From the IMG/VR virus record IMGVR_UViG_3300032087_004989, positions 1 through 26,398 of that record: 26,398 nt of DNA; one strand, 5' to 3'. Each line of letters starts with the position of its first letter. Positions within the stretch are counted from its first letter, which is position 1. The notes beneath the pieces were generated by a model. That model saw only the letters and a list, made by a program, of their open reading frames with translations, had not been told where the DNA came from and did not search any database. This document shows, in pieces, positions 3,025-20,566 of this stretch. This DNA is from a virus. The position numbers and the translations under genes were made by a program.

Positions 3025-3132
3025 ATGGCTAAAGGTAATAAGAAAACTTCTATCGGAAAACGAAATGTAAAGTTTTCGTCAATGAATAAATCCACAAAAC
3101 GTAGTTTTAAAAAATATAGAGGACAAGGTTAA
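3025..3132 (+). CDS. 35-aa basic protein, paralogue of the 48-aa protein, between tRNAs
   Basis: A GTGAGGAAAATT ribosome-binding region precedes the ATG. The product MAKGNKKTSIGKRN... contains KTSIGKR, SSMNKSTKRSFKKYRGQG and stops. It aligns with the protein at 1238 over KTSIG(R/K), MNK and RSFKK(N/Y)RGQG, but lacks the N-terminal 10-residue extension and the KAI tail. About 40 percent of residues are Lys or Arg. The TAA (3130-3132) is immediately followed by the first base of tRNA-Pro. Function is unknown. Position within a tRNA array and charge make an RNA or ribosome partner plausible, which is inference. Confidence 0.72.
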   Translation: MAKGNKKTSIGKRNVKFSSMNKSTKRSFKKYRGQG

Positions 3133-3209
3133 CTCGGTATAGCACAGCCTGGTAGTGCGCTAGTTTTGGGTACTAGAGGTCGTTGGTTCGAATCCAGCTA
3201 CCGAGACCA
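3133..3209 (+). tRNA. tRNA-Pro(TGG)
   Basis: Acceptor CTCGGTA / TACCGAG is perfect, the anticodon stem is CTAGT/ACTAG with loop TTTGGGT (anticodon TGG), the T arm is GTTGG-TTCGAAT-CCAGC, the discriminator is A and CCA is encoded at 3207-3209. It decodes CCA, the preferred proline codon in this window. Its 5' end abuts the stop codon of the 35-aa gene with no gap. Confidence 0.96.
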
Positions 3210-3215
3210 ATATAA

Positions 3216-3256
3216 CGGGAGCGTTTAAGAAGGTTCGAACCCTCCACTCCCGCCCA
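3216..3256 (+). pseudogene. tRNA relic: acceptor plus T arm only
   Basis: CGGGAG (3216-3221) pairs perfectly with CTCCCG (3247-3252), followed by C and an encoded CCA (3254-3256). Between them are a T arm (GAAGG-TTCGAAC-CCTCC, one mismatch) and only six or seven linker bases. The D arm and anticodon arm are missing, leaving a 41-nt minihelix. It lies 6 nt after tRNA-Pro, so it would be co-transcribed. The simplest reading is an internally deleted tRNA; a retained minihelix substrate for tRNA enzymes is possible but unproven. Confidence 0.7.
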
Positions 3257-3260
3257 GAAA

Positions 3261-3400
3261 ATCCTCTAAATGTTGAGGTCACATAGATGAGATTAGACTG
3301 TTGGTAATCTATGTGTGGAGTAACAGTCTATGCCTGCATTGCCCGTCGGTGCAGGATGAAATCAAAGATGATCTGCATAGCGGTGATTCTAGGGCGGGCC
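3261..3400 (+). ncRNA. Candidate pseudoknotted structured RNA within the tRNA array
   Basis: No ORF explains this segment. CACATAGAT (3280-3288) pairs perfectly with ATCTATGTG (3307-3315), and TAGACTGTT (3294-3302) pairs perfectly with AACAGTCTA (3322-3330). The two 9-bp stems are interleaved, the layout of an H-type pseudoknot with loops of 5, 4 and 6 nt. Downstream, CCTGCA (3333-3338) pairs with TGCAGG (3350-3355), and its loop GCCCGTC (3341-3347) can pair with GGCGGGC (3393-3399), a second crossing interaction. A short CCTC/GAGG stem (3263-3266/3275-3278) precedes the knot. The strand is taken from the flanking tRNAs. Weinberg-type manA or wcaG motifs, which occur in marine phages, are candidates to compare; I cannot identify it from sequence alone. 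Confidence 0.6.
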
Positions 3401-3407
3401 AAATTAT

Positions 3408-3483
3408 GCGGGTATAGCTCAGTTGGTAGAGCGTCAGATTTCCAATCTGAATGTCGTCAGTTCGAACCTGATTGCCCGCTCCA
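3408..3483 (+). tRNA. tRNA-Gly(TCC)
   Basis: Acceptor GCGGGTA / TGCCCGC (one G-U), D arm GCTC...GAGC, anticodon stem TCAGA/TCTGA with loop TTTCCAA (anticodon TCC at 3441-3443), T arm GTCAG-TTCGAAC-CTGAT, discriminator T, and encoded CCA at 3481-3483. It reads GGA, used heavily in the collagen-like and glycine-rich adhesin genes downstream. Confidence 0.95.
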
Positions 3484-3485
3484 AT

Positions 3486-3571
3486 GCCTCCTTGGTGGAA
3501 TGGTAGACACAAGAGACTTAAAATCTCTCGCTAGTAATAGCGTCCCGGTTCGAGTCCGGGAGGAGGCACCA
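3486..3571 (+). tRNA. tRNA-Leu(TAA)
   Basis: Acceptor GCCTCCT / AGGAGGC is perfect, the anticodon stem is AGAGA/TCTCT with loop CTTAAAA (anticodon TAA at 3519-3521), there is a long variable arm (CGCTAGTAATAGCG), the T arm is CCCGG-TTCGAGT-CCGGG, and A plus CCA ends at 3571. It decodes TTA, the main Leu codon here. A run of six T (3575-3580) follows and could end the tRNA transcript. The reverse strand encodes the tail of a glycosyltransferase. Confidence 0.96.
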
Positions 3572-4198: not shown

Positions 4199-5081
4199 AC
4201 CATTCCTTTACCCAATCAAATTCTTTATTAATAACATGAATAAAATTAGTACCATTTGGCACATAACAATGATTATCCATAAAGTGGTGCCAATCAGGCC
4301 GTAACCATATATTTGGCACTTTATTTATTTTATTTTTTACACTCCATAAAGTTTCATTATCCCACCCGAATATTTCTTGAATCCACATAGGATACATAGA
4401 ATCTTCTTCATGTTTTAATTCTGACATTGTTTCAAGCCAATAATCATGATCTTCAAAATATGCTAACTTATCTAGCCATTTTTTATTGCATCCAACAATC
4501 CCGGTATTGTAGACAAAGTTTTTAGGATCTTCTCCTTCATTTAATAATAAAGCAATTGCATTCCAGTATTTAGCAGCAGGAGATCTAATACTATGTGCTG
4601 ATTCATCTACTTGTTCTCTCCATTTTGCTTGATCTCTTATATTTTTAAGAGATGCATTTACCTTTGGATCATTTTGAAAAATAGCAATGCCTTCATTTAA
4701 ATCGTGTTCAGCAAAAAAGTTTTTCTTTGTAATAGGAACAACATCAATATCTAGATAAAGAACCTCGTCGAATTCTCGAGACAATTCATACATTAAATGA
4801 ATTTTATAAAAATTTACAATATTCCAAACTGTAACGTCAGTATGATTTTCTTTATACCATTTTTCAAATTCTAAATATTTGTCATCTCTAGTGTATTGTA
4901 TATACTCTGCGTCGATACTTTCAGCGTATGTCTTTTGCATTGCTGTAAGCCAATCATGGTTTTGTAAAAACACTCGATTAGCTTTATCATTTTTAGATTC
5001 AGTTTCACCTGGATATGGTGGTTGCCAATCTAAATCATCATTTGGGATTTGAATAAAAATACTATAAATAACTCGTTTCAT
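4158..5081 (-). CDS. DxD glycosyltransferase
   Basis: A 307-aa GT-A-type glycosyltransferase. After MKRVIYSIFIQIPNDD it has an insertion with PPYPGETES, a nucleotide-binding region, EFDEVLYLDIDVVPI with the DxD metal site D111-I-D113, and FVYNTGIVGCNK (189-200). These motifs align with the smaller neighbour, so the pair arose by duplication, this one about 80 residues longer. The pair forms a two-gene unit opposite to all other genes and diverges from the fibre operon across an 82-nt gap. No exact late promoter is seen on this strand, so timing may differ from the fibres. Target could be virion protein, host surface glycan or DNA; the sequence does not decide. Confidence 0.85.
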   Translation of the reverse strand: MKRVIYSIFIQIPNDDLDWQPPYPGETESKNDKANRVFLQNHDWLTAMQKTYAESIDAEYIQYTRDDKYLEFEKWYKENHTDVTVWNIVNFYKIHLMYELSREFDEVLYLDIDVVPITKKNFFAEHDLNEGIAIFQNDPKVNASLKNIRDQAKWREQVDESAHSIRSPAAKYWNAIALLLNEGEDPKNFVYNTGIVGCNKKWLDKLAYFEDHDYWLETMSELKHEEDSMYPMWIQEIFGWDNETLWSVKNKINKVPNIWLRPDWHHFMDNHCYVPNGTNFIHVINKEFDWVKEWCEQNNIHPVSSTE

Positions 5082-5163: not shown

Positions 5164-5529
5164 ATGGCCCAATACGAAGAATTTACAATCGACCAAGGCA
5201 CAGACGTGGCCATTGAAATATACTGTGTAGATGAGAATGGTAATACAAAAGACCTTTCAAACTATCAAGTTTCAGCAGAATTAAAGAGAAATTATTCAAC
5301 CACAAATTTAATATCATTTAACTCCGTTGTTGCAAATCCATCAACAGATGGTGTTGCTGTAATATCTTTAACTAATGCTCAAACATCAAATCTAGAAAAA
5401 GGAAGATATGTATATGATGTGAAATTGAGTTTCCAAGATAGTAATGGCGATACAATTATTGAAAGACTTCTTGAAGGTAGAATTCAAGTAACTCCACAAG
5501 TTACTGGTACTGGTGGAGGAGGCGTATAA
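5164..5529 (+). CDS. Small beta-sandwich virion protein, likely fibre/baseplate adaptor
   Basis: A 121-aa protein, predicted all-beta: IDQGTDVAIEIYCVDENGN, LSNYQVSAELKRNYST, DGVAVISLTNAQTSNL, KGRYVYDVKLSFQDSNG, then RLLEGRIQVTPQV and a Gly tail. The order (attached gap strand, polar beta hairpins, YDVKL then EGxIxVTP) resembles Ig-like or BppU-N-type domains at the start of phage baseplate and fibre genes. It is the first gene after the late promoter and its TAATG junction overlaps the giant fibre gene by one base, so it is likely a partner of that fibre. Exact role is inference. Confidence 0.7.
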   Translation: MAQYEEFTIDQGTDVAIEIYCVDENGNTKDLSNYQVSAELKRNYSTTNLISFNSVVANPSTDGVAVISLTNAQTSNLEKGRYVYDVKLSFQDSNGDTIIERLLEGRIQVTPQVTGTGGGGV

Positions 5530-8500
5530 TGGCAACTTTTGTAAGAAGAGTCGTTGTTGGTACACCAATACGAAGAGTCACATCTGGTTCATTTAGTCTT
5601 AACAATCTAAGTGGTGTTAATATATCAGGTGATGCTGGCACAGGTCAAAACATCGGTGAAGGTCAACACAATGATCTTTTAGTATATGACTCAGCTGCAT
5701 CAGAATATCGCAATTTAAATGTACTTCGTAAATTAAATGTAGATTATCTTACTTTCGATAGTAATGCAATTACTGTAGATTTTAATGATCCAGCTAAATT
5801 AAATGAATTGTATATTAATGCTATTAACGGTACTTTCTTTGATGGCCGAGTTGAAGCTGATAGATTTAACCAAAGACAGCTTACTGTTTTTGATGATAGT
5901 TCTCTTACAACAAAATTCTATGTAGACCAAGAAGTTGATAAGGTAAAAGAAGTTACCTTTACAATGGATGATGGATTTACTGACTCTGTTCAAATATATG
6001 ATGGTGAAACTATCACATTGGCTGGTGGACGAGGCCTGTCCACACGCGGTGTAAAAATTGGTCAAGTTCTTACAATCACAACTGATCTTGATTCTACAGG
6101 TGCAGATTCTGGAACATTTGGTTCTTCTATTCGTATTCCAGTTCTTACAACAAATTCGCGTGGTCAAATTACAGCAATTTCAGACGTAGCTGTTGCTTCA
6201 CTCGATTCAATTAGTTATGATTCTTCACTTGGTTCTGGTACATTTAGCATTAATACAAGTGATGGTGGATTATTTCAAACAGATATCAATTTAAATCCAT
6301 TTACGACTGATGATCTTGTTGAAGGTCCTGGTGATCCTCAACCTGCGACTGAAAGTTATACACTTACTCTTTCAGCAATAAACAATTTCTTCTATCAAGT
6401 TTCAGGTTCAGATAGAACAGGTTCAATTAATAGCGGAGATCCTGCTCTTACAATAAGAACAGATGATACAATTACATTTAATAATACTGTATCTGGTGAT
6501 CATCCAATGTACATTAAAACTGTGCAAGGAGATGGTACTGGAGATCAAGCGTCTGGAGTTACAGGACAAGGTACTGCTACAGTAACTTGGACACCAACAG
6601 TTCCTGGTACATATTATTATCAATGTGCTAATCATACAGACATGTATGGTGTTCTTACTGTTACACAACGACCAGGTGTACCAGAACCAAATTTATATTA
6701 TAGAAGAACAAGATTCGATAGTGCACTTGGGGATGATATATCTATTGCTACTATTAGAGGTTATTTTAGCACTGATGGAGACTTGTTATATGATTCTGCA
6801 TCAGGTCAATTCTCAATTGACGTTGACCAAGTTTATTCAAAGGATAACTTTGACTCTGACTTAGATGCTGCTATGAATAGCAATTATAACTTACATTGGT
6901 ATCCAGATAGTAACTTCTTTGATCTTACAGCAATTAATGATTCAACAGCTGGCACATATGGTTCACCAACACAAATGCCAGTATTTTCAGTTGATAGCTA
7001 TGGACGTATCGATAGTATTGGAGAAGTTTTAGTTGCTTCAGTAGATAGCACACGTTGGATCTCAAGTACAAATACTTATAGAATTAGTACAGGTGATGGT
7101 CAAGTATTTAATACTGTTATTGATAGCTTCAACAGCAATGTATTAATTCAAGACGACATTAAATTAAATTTTGGTGCAGGTGAAGATTTAAAAATCTATC
7201 ACAACACAGGTGATGGTACAAATTATATTGAAGCTACAAATAGTGTATTAAAAGCTTCAAGTACAATGTATATTCATCTTGGAAGTGAAACATATGTTGA
7301 AGGTGATCTTATACCTTGGGCAGATTCGACATATGATCTTGGTACTTCTACTAATAAATGGAAAGATCTACATCTTTCTGGCAATACTATTCATCTTGGC
7401 CAAGTAAAACTACAAGATAGTGCAGGTTCGCTTTCTATTAAAACTGCAAGTGGTTTACCTGGAGATTTAACTCTTAAACATTTAACTGCTGACTCTGCGT
7501 TTATTAGTCAATTAACTGTAGATAGCATTAATGTTGGTCAATTGAATCTATCTAATGCTGATATGGATAGCTTATATGTTGATCAATTAAATGTTAGTCA
7601 AGGTGATATTGACTCAGCACATATTTCTCAATTAGATATTGATAGTGCTTATGCTACTCAATTGAATGTAGCTACAGCAGATATTGATACTCTTACATCA
7701 GCTGATGCTATATTAGATAGCGCTTATATTGGTCAATTGAATGTAAGTCAAGCTGATGCCGATAGCTTATATGTTGATCAATTAAATGTTGTCACAGCAG
7801 ATATTGATAATGTTACATTAGGTCAAGTTACTATTGATTCGGCACATGCTACACAATTAGATGTTTCAAACGCTCACATTGATGCTGCTACTGTTGATTC
7901 TGCAAGAATTGAAAACTTAAGTGTAGATATTTTAAATGCTGATTCAGTATCAGCAGACTTTATAAGATTTGATCCAATTCTTTGGGATGATAATACTAAA
8001 CCTGCAAGTGATGAAGGTACAGTATACTATAACTCTGGACCTGATGCCCTCGTATATAAACCAGCTACTGCTTCTCCAATTAAAATTGGTCAAGATGATG
8101 TCGTAAGAGTTTATAATAACTCTGGTGCTATGATTCCAAAAGGAACACCAGTTTATGTAACTGGTGCAACAAATGATTTCCCAACAATTGAAAAAGCACA
8201 AGCAAATGATATCAATACTATTGATGAAACAATTGGTGTTCTAAAAGATAGTATTAATAATAACACTTTTGGTCTTGTATTACAGCGTGGTTTACTTGGA
8301 AGATTAGATACTTCAGCTTATGCTCCTGGTACAAAATTATTTGTATCGGCTGATAGCGCTGGTAAATTTACTTCTACTGCTCCTGAATATCCTAACTTTG
8401 CATATGAAATTGGTACAGTTCTTGTACAAGATTCTCAAGGTGGACCAGCAGTTGGTGGTTGTATTCAAATTAAACCATTTAGAGAATTCTTCGAACAAAT

Positions 8501-11057
8501 TCGTGTAACAGGTTCTGGTAGAGTTGATGCTAACTTTACAATCGGTGGTAACCTTACAGTTATTGGTTCTCAAGTTCAAACTTCGGTTCAAAGTTTAGCG
8601 GTATCTGACACCGTTATTGAAATGGGTGCAGGTGATACTATTGGCCTTGCCGCTACCAATTTTGGTGGAACTGGAACTAATGATGCATCACTTACAGGAC
8701 ACTATACTGGTGACGGTGTTGTCGAATTCCACGTTCGCATTGATAGCGTAGGATCTGGTGGAGAAGGTGATAAGATTGAATGGTCTTATGATAGTCAATA
8801 TGGATCATTAGAACCATTTGATTCAGCATTAGGTTCAACAAGCTTTGTACTTTCATCAGGAGATTTGGTTGCAAATCTTGCAAATGGAATTAAAATTGCA
8901 TTTACAGCAGAAACTGGTCACGATCTTGGAGATAGTTGGTCAGGTGAAGCTTCACCAATCGATGTTCAAATTGGTATTGTTGGTAACTATAATCCACCAG
9001 CAGATTCGCATGCTTATTCTGGATTCATAAGAGATCCATCGGATTTCAGATGGAAACTTTTCCAACAATATTTACCAGATCCACAAGCAAATATTAATTT
9101 CGCTGATCCTTCATTAGAATATGCTCCGCTTCAAGTTGGAACATTATACGCAGATACAGTAAATGCTGATCTTACAGGTAATGTCACTGGTACAGTAACT
9201 GATATTTCAAATCATACTACAGATCAATTACTTGAAGGTTCAACTAATCAATACTATTTAAAATCGCGTGTTGATAGTGATATTCTCGATTCGATTGCTA
9301 CAAATAATTTAAATGTTGCTACTGGTGATATTAGTCAATTTACTTCTGACTCTGCATTTATTACTCAATTAAATGTACCAACAGGAGATATTGACACATT
9401 AACATCGGCAAATGCTATACTCGATTCTGCTTATATCGGACAATTAAACGTAAGTCAAGCTGATGCTGATTCACTTTATGTAGATCAATTGAACGTAACA
9501 ACTGCTGATATAGACACATTGACTTCAGCTGATGCTGTATTAGATAGCGCATATATTGGTCAACTTAATGTTGCAACTGGTGATATTGATACCCTTACAT
9601 CGGCTAATGCTTCACTTGATTCTGCTTATGTTGGGCAATTAAATGTCACAACTGGTGATATTGATACCTTTACATCAGCAAATGCAAATATTGATTCTGC
9701 TTATATCGGCCAATTAAATGTAAGTCAAGCACATATCGATAGTCTATACGCAGATAATATTAACTTAACATTAGTTGATATTGATACGCTTACTGCTGAT
9801 TCGGCTGTTATCACAAATATATCTGGTAGTACAGCAAACTTTACTACAATTACAAGATCAGGTGCTACAAGTTATAATGGAATATGGGGTTCAGCTTCAG
9901 AAGTTCCAATAATTACACTAGATTCATCTGGTTTTGTAGATAGTATTGGAACAACTTCGGTTGCTGGTGTAACAGCATTTGCATGGGATTCTGCTACTTC
10001 AACTGCTACCATTAGTACCGCAGACGGTGGATCATATCCAGCTATTATTAATGGTTGGGGCGATAACCAAAAAGTTTATTTTGGTGCCGATAGCAACGCA
10101 TATTTCTATCATGATGGAAATAATTTTAATCTTGAAAATGATCAAGGTGGATTTAGAATTACTCTTAATGACAATGGACAGGATTTTGCCGTATATGCTC
10201 AAACTACTGATGCCTTAGAGCGAGTAATAACTGCCGGTGGTACTTCTGAGGTTTCTATTGTAAATCTATGGCATAATGATAAAAAGAGATTATTAACAAC
10301 TAGTACTGGGGTTGAAATAAGAGGTGGAAATGGATTCCAAGGTTCTCTTGGAGAAATCTTAGCTGATTCTGCTACTATTTCAAGATTAAGTGGCTCGGTT
10401 GTTGTAGAAAGTGGTCTTACTTCAGATTCATTACAGACAAATCTAATTAGTGTCACTGATGATTCTAACGGTGATTATAGAATTAAGAATAATATAGTTC
10501 AAAGAACATATGAAAATAGAGATTCTCAAAACCTCACTGCTGGTATTACTCAAGACTCAAATAATCAAGGATTAATTAACATTTATGTAAGAACTGGATT
10601 TAAAACTGGTCAACATAGATATTGGAAACAAGGATCTGCAAAAGGTTATTACATCGCATATGATTCAGATCATCTTTATACTGATAAAGAAATTCAAGCT
10701 CCGCTCCTTGATTTACTTCCAGGTGTAACATATAGATTCCATCATAATGATTCTTCAATGTCAACACACGATATTCGATTCTATTGGGATAATCAAAAAT
10801 CTGGATTACTTTCTGATAGTGCAGCAGATATTAAATATGTTGGCACTGCTGGTAATATTGATGTTGGAAATTCATATGCACAAATTAAAGTAAAAGATGA
10901 TGGACCTCGTTCATTTGGATATCAATGTTTGAACCACCCATATATGGGTAATCTTGCAATTACAAATAGCGGTGCTGGTGCAAGAATACTTGGAACATCA
11001 AGTGGTATTAAAGTTGATGGAAATATTGAGGCTATAATTGATGGCGGAACATATTAA
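5529..11057 (+). CDS. Giant 1842-aa repetitive tail fibre / adhesin with two cupredoxin-like domains
   Basis: A late structural protein that probably forms a long fibre. N-terminus MATFVRRVVVGTPIRRV is followed by typical fibre modules (NDLLVYDSAASEYRNL; GTYGSPTQMPVFSVDSYGRI; a DLKIYHNTGDGTNYI segment; TYDLGTSTNKWKDLHLSGN). A cupredoxin-like domain at about 275-381 has H325 and C366-x2-H369-x2-M372. Another near the C-terminus (about 1700-1815) has H1747 and C1800-x2-H1803-x2-M1806. Two arrays with five-residue periodicity (about 652-812 and 1258-1434) flank a globular region with PIKIGQDDVVRVYNNSGAMI. It ends with IKVDGNIEAIIDGGTY. Being all one frame with no signal peptide or membrane segment, it suits a fibre folded as a trimer. 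Which T4 fibre it replaces is not clear. Confidence 0.85.
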   Translation: MATFVRRVVVGTPIRRVTSGSFSLNNLSGVNISGDAGTGQNIGEGQHNDLLVYDSAASEYRNLNVLRKLNVDYLTFDSNAITVDFNDPAKLNELYINAINGTFFDGRVEADRFNQRQLTVFDDSSLTTKFYVDQEVDKVKEVTFTMDDGFTDSVQIYDGETITLAGGRGLSTRGVKIGQVLTITTDLDSTGADSGTFGSSIRIPVLTTNSRGQITAISDVAVASLDSISYDSSLGSGTFSINTSDGGLFQTDINLNPFTTDDLVEGPGDPQPATESYTLTLSAINNFFYQVSGSDRTGSINSGDPALTIRTDDTITFNNTVSGDHPMYIKTVQGDGTGDQASGVTGQGTATVTWTPTVPGTYYYQCANHTDMYGVLTVTQRPGVPEPNLYYRRTRFDSALGDDISIATIRGYFSTDGDLLYDSASGQFSIDVDQVYSKDNFDSDLDAAMNSNYNLHWYPDSNFFDLTAINDSTAGTYGSPTQMPVFSVDSYGRIDSIGEVLVASVDSTRWISSTNTYRISTGDGQVFNTVIDSFNSNVLIQDDIKLNFGAGEDLKIYHNTGDGTNYIEATNSVLKASSTMYIHLGSETYVEGDLIPWADSTYDLGTSTNKWKDLHLSGNTIHLGQVKLQDSAGSLSIKTASGLPGDLTLKHLTADSAFISQLTVDSINVGQLNLSNADMDSLYVDQLNVSQGDIDSAHISQLDIDSAYATQLNVATADIDTLTSADAILDSAYIGQLNVSQADADSLYVDQLNVVTADIDNVTLGQVTIDSAHATQLDVSNAHIDAATVDSARIENLSVDILNADSVSADFIRFDPILWDDNTKPASDEGTVYYNSGPDALVYKPATASPIKIGQDDVVRVYNNSGAMIPKGTPVYVTGATNDFPTIEKAQANDINTIDETIGVLKDSINNNTFGLVLQRGLLGRLDTSAYAPGTKLFVSADSAGKFTSTAPEYPNFAYEIGTVLVQDSQGGPAVGGCIQIKPFREFFEQIRVTGSGRVDANFTIGGNLTVIGSQVQTSVQSLAVSDTVIEMGAGDTIGLAATNFGGTGTNDASLTGHYTGDGVVEFHVRIDSVGSGGEGDKIEWSYDSQYGSLEPFDSALGSTSFVLSSGDLVANLANGIKIAFTAETGHDLGDSWSGEASPIDVQIGIVGNYNPPADSHAYSGFIRDPSDFRWKLFQQYLPDPQANINFADPSLEYAPLQVGTLYADTVNADLTGNVTGTVTDISNHTTDQLLEGSTNQYYLKSRVDSDILDSIATNNLNVATGDISQFTSDSAFITQLNVPTGDIDTLTSANAILDSAYIGQLNVSQADADSLYVDQLNVTTADIDTLTSADAVLDSAYIGQLNVATGDIDTLTSANASLDSAYVGQLNVTTGDIDTFTSANANIDSAYIGQLNVSQAHIDSLYADNINLTLVDIDTLTADSAVITNISGSTANFTTITRSGATSYNGIWGSASEVPIITLDSSGFVDSIGTTSVAGVTAFAWDSATSTATISTADGGSYPAIINGWGDNQKVYFGADSNAYFYHDGNNFNLENDQGGFRITLNDNGQDFAVYAQTTDALERVITAGGTSEVSIVNLWHNDKKRLLTTSTGVEIRGGNGFQGSLGEILADSATISRLSGSVVVESGLTSDSLQTNLISVTDDSNGDYRIKNNIVQRTYENRDSQNLTAGITQDSNNQGLINIYVRTGFKTGQHRYWKQGSAKGYYIAYDSDHLYTDKEIQAPLLDLLPGVTYRFHHNDSSMSTHDIRFYWDNQKSGLLSDSAADIKYVGTAGNIDVGNSYAQIKVKDDGPRSFGYQCLNHPYMGNLAITNSGAGARILGTSSGIKVDGNIEAIIDGGTY
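7482..7962 (+). repeat. Fibre repeat array 1, five-residue period
   Basis: The protein over this stretch runs in register as five-residue units such as DSLYV-DQLNV-SQGDI-DSAHI-SQLDI, with Leu or Ala at position 3 and Val, Ile or Leu at position 5. Units are grouped into 15- and 25-residue blocks (DSAYIGQLNV..., DIDTLTSADAIL). The DNA is only moderately conserved, so the repeat is old or selected at protein level. Confidence 0.75.
9300..9830 (+). repeat. Fibre repeat array 2, five-residue period
   Basis: A second array with the same units (DSAYIGQLNV, SQADADSLYVDQLNV, DIDTLTSADAVL) repeats five times or more. Part of it is almost identical in protein to array 1 (YIGQLNVSQADADSLYVDQL), showing that a block was copied between the two arrays about 1.7 kb apart. 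Confidence 0.75.
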
Positions 11058-19012: not shown

Positions 19013-20566
19013 ATGGCTATACTTAACTTTCCAATAAATCCATCGCACAACGATACTTATTCAGCAAATGGTATTGACTATCTATATGATAGTAATTCTA
19101 CTTCTTGGACTGTTGAACCAAATTTAGGATATACTGGTTCGCAAGGTTTTACTGGATCTAAAGGTGCTGGATTTACAGGATCAAGAGGATCCCTTGGTTT
19201 TGTTGGATCTCAAGGTTTTACTGGATCAGTTGGTTTTACTGGATCTGTTGGTTACGGTGGTTCTTCACAATCTCAAGGTATTTTATATGCTTATGATACT
19301 GGCACTACTGTGGGTGGAGCACTTACAGGTGAAATAAGATTTAATAACGCTGCTATTGGTTCTGCTACTCAAATTGGTATTAATGTTACTGATGCAAATG
19401 CAAATAATCTCACAGATTATTTTACTACACTAGATAACTTTGGTGATGCTGTAAATAATTTTATTGGTTATTTGCAAATAAGACCAGCCGATGTTTCTGA
19501 TGGAACAACCCAAGTATTTAGGGTTGAATCAGTATTTTCTTTAGCAAGTGGTGTTGTTACAGCAACTATATCTTCTGCTGGTGGTTCTATAACATTAAGT
19601 GATAATGATCAAATTTTAATTACTTTTGTGCCAGCTGCTCAAGGTGCTATCGGTTATACTGGTTCTCGAGGGGCCATTGGTTATACGGGATCTCGTGGAG
19701 CTCAAGGTTATACTGGATCTCAAGGTGTGATTGGTTACACCGGTTCACAGGGTGTTATCGGTTATACGGGATCACAAGGTTATACTGGTTCTCAAGGAGC
19801 TAAAGGTGATCTCGGTTATACTGGATCTCGAGGTGTAATTGGCTATACTGGTTCTCGAGGTGTGATTGGTTACACTGGATCTCGAGGAGCTACAGGATTT
19901 ACAGGATCTCGAGGTGTAATTGGTTACACTGGATCTCGAGGAGCTGATGGTACTTCATTGAATATCCAAGGTACTGTTGCAACAGTTGGAAACTTGCCAG
20001 CAAGTGGTAATACCGCTGGTGATGGTTATGTTGTACAAGCCGATTCTAATTTGTATATTTGGGATGGTTCTGCTTGGACTAACGTTGGTCAATTCGTTGG
20101 CTATACAGGTTCACAAGGTATAGGTTATACTGGATCTCAAGGTTCAACTGGATTTGTAGGATCTCGTGGAGATCAAGGTTACACTGGATCTCAAGGTTAT
20201 ACTGGATCTCAAGGTGTCATTGGTTATACGGGATCACGAGGAGCTCAAGGTTATACTGGTTCTCAAGGAGCTCAAGGTTATACTGGTTCTCGAGGAGCTC
20301 AAGGTTATACTGGTTCTCAAGGTTATACTGGTTCTCAAGGAGCTAAAGGTGATCTCGGTTATACTGGATCTCAAGGTGTCATTGGTTATACTGGTTCTCG
20401 AGGAGCTACAGGATTTACAGGATCTCGAGGTGCGATTGGTTACACTGGATCACAAGGTTATACTGGTTCTCAAGGAGCTAAAGGTGATCTCGGTTATACT
20501 GGATCTCAAGGTTTAGCAGGTGGGGGCACTGGTGTTGCAATTGCAATGGCAATGATATTTGGATAA
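19013..20566 (+). CDS. 517-aa collagen-like fibre protein
   Basis: MAILNFPINPSHNDTYSANG with YLYDSNSTSWTV is the FPxxP fibre-start module. Three Gly-X-Y collagen-like stretches follow (about 39-85, 215-325 and 363-502), made of GYTGSQG, GYTGSRG and GVIGYTGSRG units, with two globular inserts: a beta domain (about 86-215) and the fibre domain GTVATVGNLPASGNTAGDGY (about 325-362). The tail GGGTGVAIAMAMIFG is hydrophobic. No proline occurs in the Gly-X-Y parts. The protein should form a thin trimeric fibre. Because collagen triple helices depend on the frame, length may vary between relatives by repeat slippage. Confidence 0.85.
   Translation: MAILNFPINPSHNDTYSANGIDYLYDSNSTSWTVEPNLGYTGSQGFTGSKGAGFTGSRGSLGFVGSQGFTGSVGFTGSVGYGGSSQSQGILYAYDTGTTVGGALTGEIRFNNAAIGSATQIGINVTDANANNLTDYFTTLDNFGDAVNNFIGYLQIRPADVSDGTTQVFRVESVFSLASGVVTATISSAGGSITLSDNDQILITFVPAAQGAIGYTGSRGAIGYTGSRGAQGYTGSQGVIGYTGSQGVIGYTGSQGYTGSQGAKGDLGYTGSRGVIGYTGSRGVIGYTGSRGATGFTGSRGVIGYTGSRGADGTSLNIQGTVATVGNLPASGNTAGDGYVVQADSNLYIWDGSAWTNVGQFVGYTGSQGIGYTGSQGSTGFVGSRGDQGYTGSQGYTGSQGVIGYTGSRGAQGYTGSQGAQGYTGSRGAQGYTGSQGYTGSQGAKGDLGYTGSQGVIGYTGSRGATGFTGSRGAIGYTGSQGYTGSQGAKGDLGYTGSQGLAGGGTGVAIAMAMIFG
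19127..20520 (+). repeat. Collagen-type tandem repeats, with an exact 48-bp block present three times
   Basis: GGT-TAT-ACT-GGA-TCT-CAA/CGA-GGT style units occur throughout in 9-, 18- and 27-nt multiples. A 48-bp block (starts TATACTGGTTCTCAAGGAGC, encodes YTGSQGAKGDLGYTGS) is identical at 19781-19828, 20324-20371 and 20459-20506. These are protein-coding repeats, not a CRISPR array. Confidence 0.85.

Follow-up and report, generated by a model that had tools for sequence, protein, structure and literature searches.

The tRNA region of phage T4 produces two small RNAs, RNAC and RNAD (PMC3014915, PMC9697503), which lie at the end of the tRNA cluster and correspond to species 1 (139 nt) and species 2 (119 nt), respectively (PMC3014915, PMC12685909). 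Both are late RNAs that have been validated by Northern analysis (PMC9697503), and their role is unknown (PMC3014915); in a T4-like phage, one mutation in the rnaD region was reported to be common to all evolved lines (PMC12685909). GOLLD and ROOL are likewise structured phage RNAs of unknown role that are often found near tRNA islands, but they are several hundred nucleotides in length and form nanocages (PMC12286853), whereas the RNA candidate described here, element X, is shorter than 200 nt.

Element X is non-coding, folded, and located in a phage tRNA cluster, and is in these respects of the RNAC/RNAD kind; like RNAC, it bears a T-arm/acceptor-like end. Unlike the two T4 RNAs at their cluster end, it lies between tRNAs, and a strict pseudoknot of two 9-bp stems comparable to that of element X was not found in either of them. 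Comparison with RNAC and RNAD by blastn on a phage collection gave only chance matches (E up to 10), and the single-sequence covariance model R1 had none in T4. In Rfam scans, both at gathering thresholds and at E up to 10, element X matched neither the GOLLD (RF02032) nor the ROOL model. A tRNA-like acceptor/T-arm and pseudoknots are also features of tmRNA, including the permuted alphaproteobacterial forms (RF01849, RF04321), but element X matches no standard or permuted tmRNA model and does not show the tmRNA combination of tag reading frame and closed tRNA-like domain, and ARAGORN finds no tmRNA in it. A permuted tmRNA was rejected on the absence of an Rfam match and because the T-arm is not directly adjacent to the closing stem described below. 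The best explanation groups element X in kind with T4 RNAC/RNAD and GOLLD/ROOL without making it a member of any of these families.

The tRNA array and its nearest relatives

The window, by which we mean the entire 26.4-kb stretch of DNA analyzed, is a viral record (IMGVR_UViG_3300032087_004989) from an uncultured marine phage. Genes for a tail sheath stabilizer and the terminase small subunit are followed by a tRNA array, all on the + strand, in the order tRNA-Arg, a small basic ORF, tRNA-Pro, element X, tRNA-Gly, and tRNA-Leu. Elsewhere in the window, an 1842-aa protein with many QLNVSQADADSLYVDQ-like repeats (5529-11057) and a 517-aa protein rich in collagen-like GYTGSRGA repeats (19013-20566) are each probably the product of a tail fibre or adhesin gene. 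The part of the array of concern here comprises:

3133..3209, + strand: tRNA-Pro(UGG), a variant copy apparently exchanged together with the cassette (ARAGORN and Rfam)
3210..3407, + strand: element X, the whole 198-nt non-coding gap from tRNA-Pro to tRNA-Gly, without a tRNA, an Rfam match, or a credible ORF
3408..3483, + strand: tRNA-Gly(UCC), apparently co-inserted with element X (ARAGORN and Rfam)
3486..3571, + strand: tRNA-Leu(UAA), its 5' part apparently within the swapped segment and its 3' part matching contig L076

Contig L076 is the nearest relative found; one of its proteins shares 98% identity with that specified by the gene downstream of the array. It provides an empty site, in which a single nucleotide separates tRNA-Pro from tRNA-Leu and both element X and tRNA-Gly are absent. 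Compared with L076, element X plus tRNA-Gly forms one discrete insertion of 276 nt between these two tRNA genes; element X is also absent from contig L060. Identity between the window and L076 is 95.6% upstream, falls to 79.2% in tRNA-Pro and 89.5% in tRNA-Leu, and reaches 98.7% downstream. The dip within the two tRNA genes indicates that the cassette was exchanged through them, and crossovers inside the flanking tRNA genes are the simplest account of these alignments. The window tRNA-Pro is identical at 77/77 positions to that of L079/L081, and the tRNA-Gly region is 98.8% identical to L088 over 80 nt.

Two further observations were made upstream. The small basic ORF between tRNA-Arg and tRNA-Pro (3026-3132), which is retained in L076 and L060, has a C-terminal motif, TSIG...MNK...RSFKK.RGQG, in common with another small basic ORF at 1223-1384. 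The 56-aa ORF preceding tRNA-Arg contains a perfect 11-bp hairpin, GTGCCAGAGCC/GGCTCTGGCAC (2799-2847); the L076 copy is identical, and L060 keeps only the inner 8 bp.

Interleaved stems and the surrounding fold

The center of element X contains two perfect 9-bp Watson-Crick stems, A and B, arranged in the order A-B-A'-B' within a total of 51 nt (3280-3330), as read directly from the sequence:

3280-3288, + strand: stem A, 5' strand CACATAGAT
3294-3302, + strand: stem B, 5' strand TAGACTGTT; a tenth pair, G-U, is possible at 3303/3321
3307-3315, + strand: stem A, 3' strand ATCTATGTG
3322-3330, + strand: stem B, 3' strand AACAGTCTA

This arrangement had been reported in the first-pass annotation, together with the view that it was very unlikely by chance, and both statements hold, the latter for the strict form of the structure. 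Stems A and B are the only interleaved pair in the window whose arms reach 8 bp or more. Interleaved 9+9 pairs within 60 nt were counted in simulated order-1 Markov DNA (i.e., preserving dinucleotide frequencies): with the window composition they occurred at 0.10 per Mb (four among 40 Mb), and with element X's own composition at 0.05 per Mb. The chance expectation is thus ~0.003 per 26.4-kb window and ~1e-5 to 2e-5 per 198-nt gap. In 0.79 Mb of related phage loci there were no 9+9 interleaved pairs and a single 8+8 pair (in L010). When G-U pairs or longer spans were allowed, such pseudoknots were common and most of the significance was lost, so that the structure stands out in its strict, compact form, in which the A/B interleaving is far beyond chance.

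The region had also been described as unused by ORFs, which was borne out: no credible ORF lies in element X, and the frames crossing it extend through tRNA genes. That it harbors a small protein gene is extremely improbable; frames of 38 and 108 codons do traverse the region, but the shorter begins with TTG inside stem B, both enter tRNA-Gly, and every nucleotide search was without a homologue.

If both stems are formed (B plus A by stacking energy), the calculated energy is -71.8 kcal/mol before any pseudoknot penalty, versus -60.4 kcal/mol for the best nested fold. The usual penalty is 7 to 9.6 kcal/mol, making the pseudoknot about equal or slightly favored; in these models, therefore, the predicted pseudoknot is roughly equal to or better than any nested fold. 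It would be of H-type order, with 9 bp in each stem and loops of 5, 4, and 6 nt, the 6-nt loop that spans the 9-bp stem A being close to the shortest usual in pseudoknots. The alternative that stems A and B never coexist, and that alternation between hairpin A and hairpin B controls processing of, or read-through in, the tRNA operon, we consider unlikely. The two hairpins are nearly equal when each is forced alone (-11.4 and -12.4 kcal/mol), as such a switch would require, but together the stems gain ~11 kcal/mol before the penalty, which favors their coexistence. Furthermore, no terminator follows either hairpin state, there is no regulated ORF immediately downstream on the same strand, and no ligand-type core was recognized by Rfam.

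Folding placed the A/B region inside a larger structure:

3216-3256, + strand: tRNA-like acceptor/T-arm minihelix (sequence and descriptor scan)
3249-3259, + strand: closing stem, 5' strand CCCGCCCAGAA (predicted alike by the minimum-energy and centroid folds)
3263-3278, + strand: small hairpin, CCTC / GAGG (minimum-energy fold)
3333-3355, + strand: hairpin C, CCTGCATTG / CGGTGCAGG, 9 bp (3333-3341/3347-3355) with loop CCCGT at 3342-3346 (fold)
3387-3398, + strand: closing stem, 3' strand TTCT-A-GGGCGGG with A3391 bulged (minimum-energy and centroid folds)

The 11-bp closing stem encloses a domain of ~150 nt that contains the small hairpin, the A/B region, and hairpin C, and it is directly followed by CCA at 3399-3401. 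Neither this stem, nor the upstream minihelix, nor the cassette nature revealed by the empty site in L076 had been noticed in the first-pass annotation, which proposed a third contact between the loop of hairpin C (GCCCGTC, 3341-3347) and GGCGGGC at 3393-3399. Those sequences can indeed pair (seven pairs, one of them G-U), but the downstream partner prefers the closing stem: GGGCGGG (3392-3398) finds a better complement in CCCGCCC (3249-3255), lengthened by AGAA/TTCT. In addition, G3341 and C3347 sit in the 9-bp stem of hairpin C and not in its loop (3342-3346). The fold of hairpin C has a z-score of -2.56, and 2 of 200 shuffles were equally good.

The 150-nt core, whose ends were picked after the fold had been seen, scored z -3.7 against dinucleotide shuffles, with none of 200 as good, and z -2.3 against a Markov resampling control; the full 198-nt gap reached only -2.15. 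Gaps in such arrays averaged -1.7 where protein-coding and -1.9 where non-coding, i.e., the two classes are not separated, and with the full gap so close to the coding mean we take fold energy as supporting evidence only.

In the minihelix, CGGGAGC (3216-3222) pairs with ACTCCCG (3246-3252) at six of seven positions to give an acceptor stem, and a T-arm (3229-3245, loop TTCGAAC) is present; C-CCA follows at 3253-3256, and there is neither a D nor an anticodon arm. A descriptor scan of the window found only one other match, inside tRNA-Pro. The minihelix and the closing stem are mutually exclusive because bases 3249-3256 are common to both. These features could be taken to mean that element X is a decaying remnant, namely a former tRNA (3216-3256), now lacking the D and anticodon arms, joined to recombination debris that folds accidentally. 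The tRNA acceptor/T-arm geometry and CCA, coupled with one mismatch in each stem, as well as the recent recombination visible in the array, are consistent with such decay, but it leaves unexplained both the 9+9 interleaving (~1e-5 per gap) and the 11-bp closing stem, and we regard it as quite improbable.

Element X might alternatively act only in cis, as a spacer whose fold insulates or assists tRNA-Pro and tRNA-Gly processing before being degraded. Its position exactly between two tRNAs, and the CCA that follows both the minihelix and the closing stem, would suit tRNA-type enzymes; adjacent tRNAs here and in relatives, however, are usually a few nucleotides apart, and a folded spacer of 198 nt is thus unneeded. 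We give this possibility a low probability.

Searches for relatives and other phage arrays

No match to element X was obtained in the Rfam scan at gathering thresholds or at E up to 10. The families suggested in the first-pass annotation (manA, wcaG, and tmRNA-like) failed to appear in this check even at E 10, and models of other phage cis-regulatory RNAs gave no match either. A group I intron was rejected, Rfam again being without a match at E 10. Exact 25-mer and 16-mer scans of viral contigs turned up no homologue (the three 16-mer matches had neither tRNAs nor element X), and none emerged from two 20-mer scans of 84,980 genomes or from blastn against 50,697 phage records plus 72,556 plasmids and against 88 related viral records. 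With covariance model R1, no relative was detected across 658 kb of loci plus 44 whole records. Exact-pattern scans can recover only copies that are nearly identical, and very close relatives of the window possibly lie outside the sets searched. A short match between the 3' end of element X (CGGGCCAA) and the leader of the L085 tRNA-Gly was rejected as homology because the only other match to the gapped pattern, in L096, is an ordinary tRNA 3' end.

Phage contigs reached via their tRNA sequences have non-coding array gaps of ~100-290 nt, none of which shares the element X sequence. Known RNAs occur in or near some of these arrays. GOLLD is present in tRNA arrays at L088:5966-6425 (- strand, 186 bits) and L092:9388-9849 (+ strand, 190 bits); ARAGORN tRNAs lie inside or overlap both copies. 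Permuted alphaproteobacterial-type tmRNAs were found at L085:2722-3144 (- strand; RF01849, 116 bits; RF04321, 121 bits) and L089:1480-1838 (+ strand; RF01849, 91 bits; RF04321, 102 bits). Further stretches between or beside phage tRNA genes with little or no coding capacity, often strongly folded, are:

L085:3876-4132 and 4209-4340, - strand
L089:315-482
L092:8297-8446 and 10165-10709
L093:10964-11255
L088:7457-7601
L045:3683-3787
L080:10702-10800

Fold z-scores were -5.7 for the L093 gap, -4.1 for that of L089, and -3.4 for L092:8297. At Rfam gathering thresholds, only tRNA was detected in the gaps of L085, L088, L089, L092, and L093, and nothing in that of L045. Pseudoknots seen by eye in the L045, L078, L085, L090, and L092 gaps did not, as a group, exceed shuffles, and we consequently do not claim a shared pseudoknot class; the pseudoknot score was clearly beyond shuffles only in L093 (z -3.8, 1/100), L080 (3/100), and the window (2/100).

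Two other features of these contigs are recorded here. L085:4335-4375 (- strand) has a sigma-70-like promoter, TTGACG, ~17 nt, TACTAT, immediately preceding a folded non-coding stretch that is followed by tRNA-Gly, as if the folded stretch had its own promoter. ARAGORN tRNAs with a CUA anticodon (labelled Pyl) occur at L077:4413-4487 and L082:9771-9848; they are possible amber suppressors, and TAG may be recoded in those phages.

Predicted processing and significance

Element X is a real, non-random, folded element and most likely a small non-coding RNA like those of phage tRNA clusters, without a family. The first-pass annotation had suggested a non-coding RNA processed along with the tRNAs, of which the structured, non-coding element is the best-supported part (no ORF, core z -3.7). 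We think it probable that element X is a structured phage non-coding RNA that is transcribed along with the tRNAs and released when these are processed. As we picture it, an RNA of ~150-200 nt, seated in the tRNA operon of a T4-like marine phage, would be part of the tRNA transcript and would be excised by the enzymes that process tRNAs: its 5' end would be released as the 3' end of tRNA-Pro matures at about 3209/3210, and its 3' end by RNase P cleavage at the 5' end of tRNA-Gly (3407/3408). The predicted RNase P and CCA processing is drawn from motif resemblance. Element X would owe its persistence to a GC-rich stem plus CCA, which would lock its ends, and to a compact H-type pseudoknot at its center; its action would be in trans.

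Small RNAs of phage tRNA clusters were discovered in T4 decades ago and are still without a function. Element X is independent, compact, and well bounded, and its predicted ends and clear insertion site make it a clean object of study. A bolder reading, which we hold as a tentative and somewhat doubtful possibility, is that marine phage tRNA arrays store fast-changing, compact folded RNAs as swappable cassettes between tRNA genes, with element X the first to be described of a new pseudoknotted family that acts in trans during infection. Element X also suggests that annotation pipelines skip many RNAs of this kind in the tRNA arrays of uncultured marine phages.
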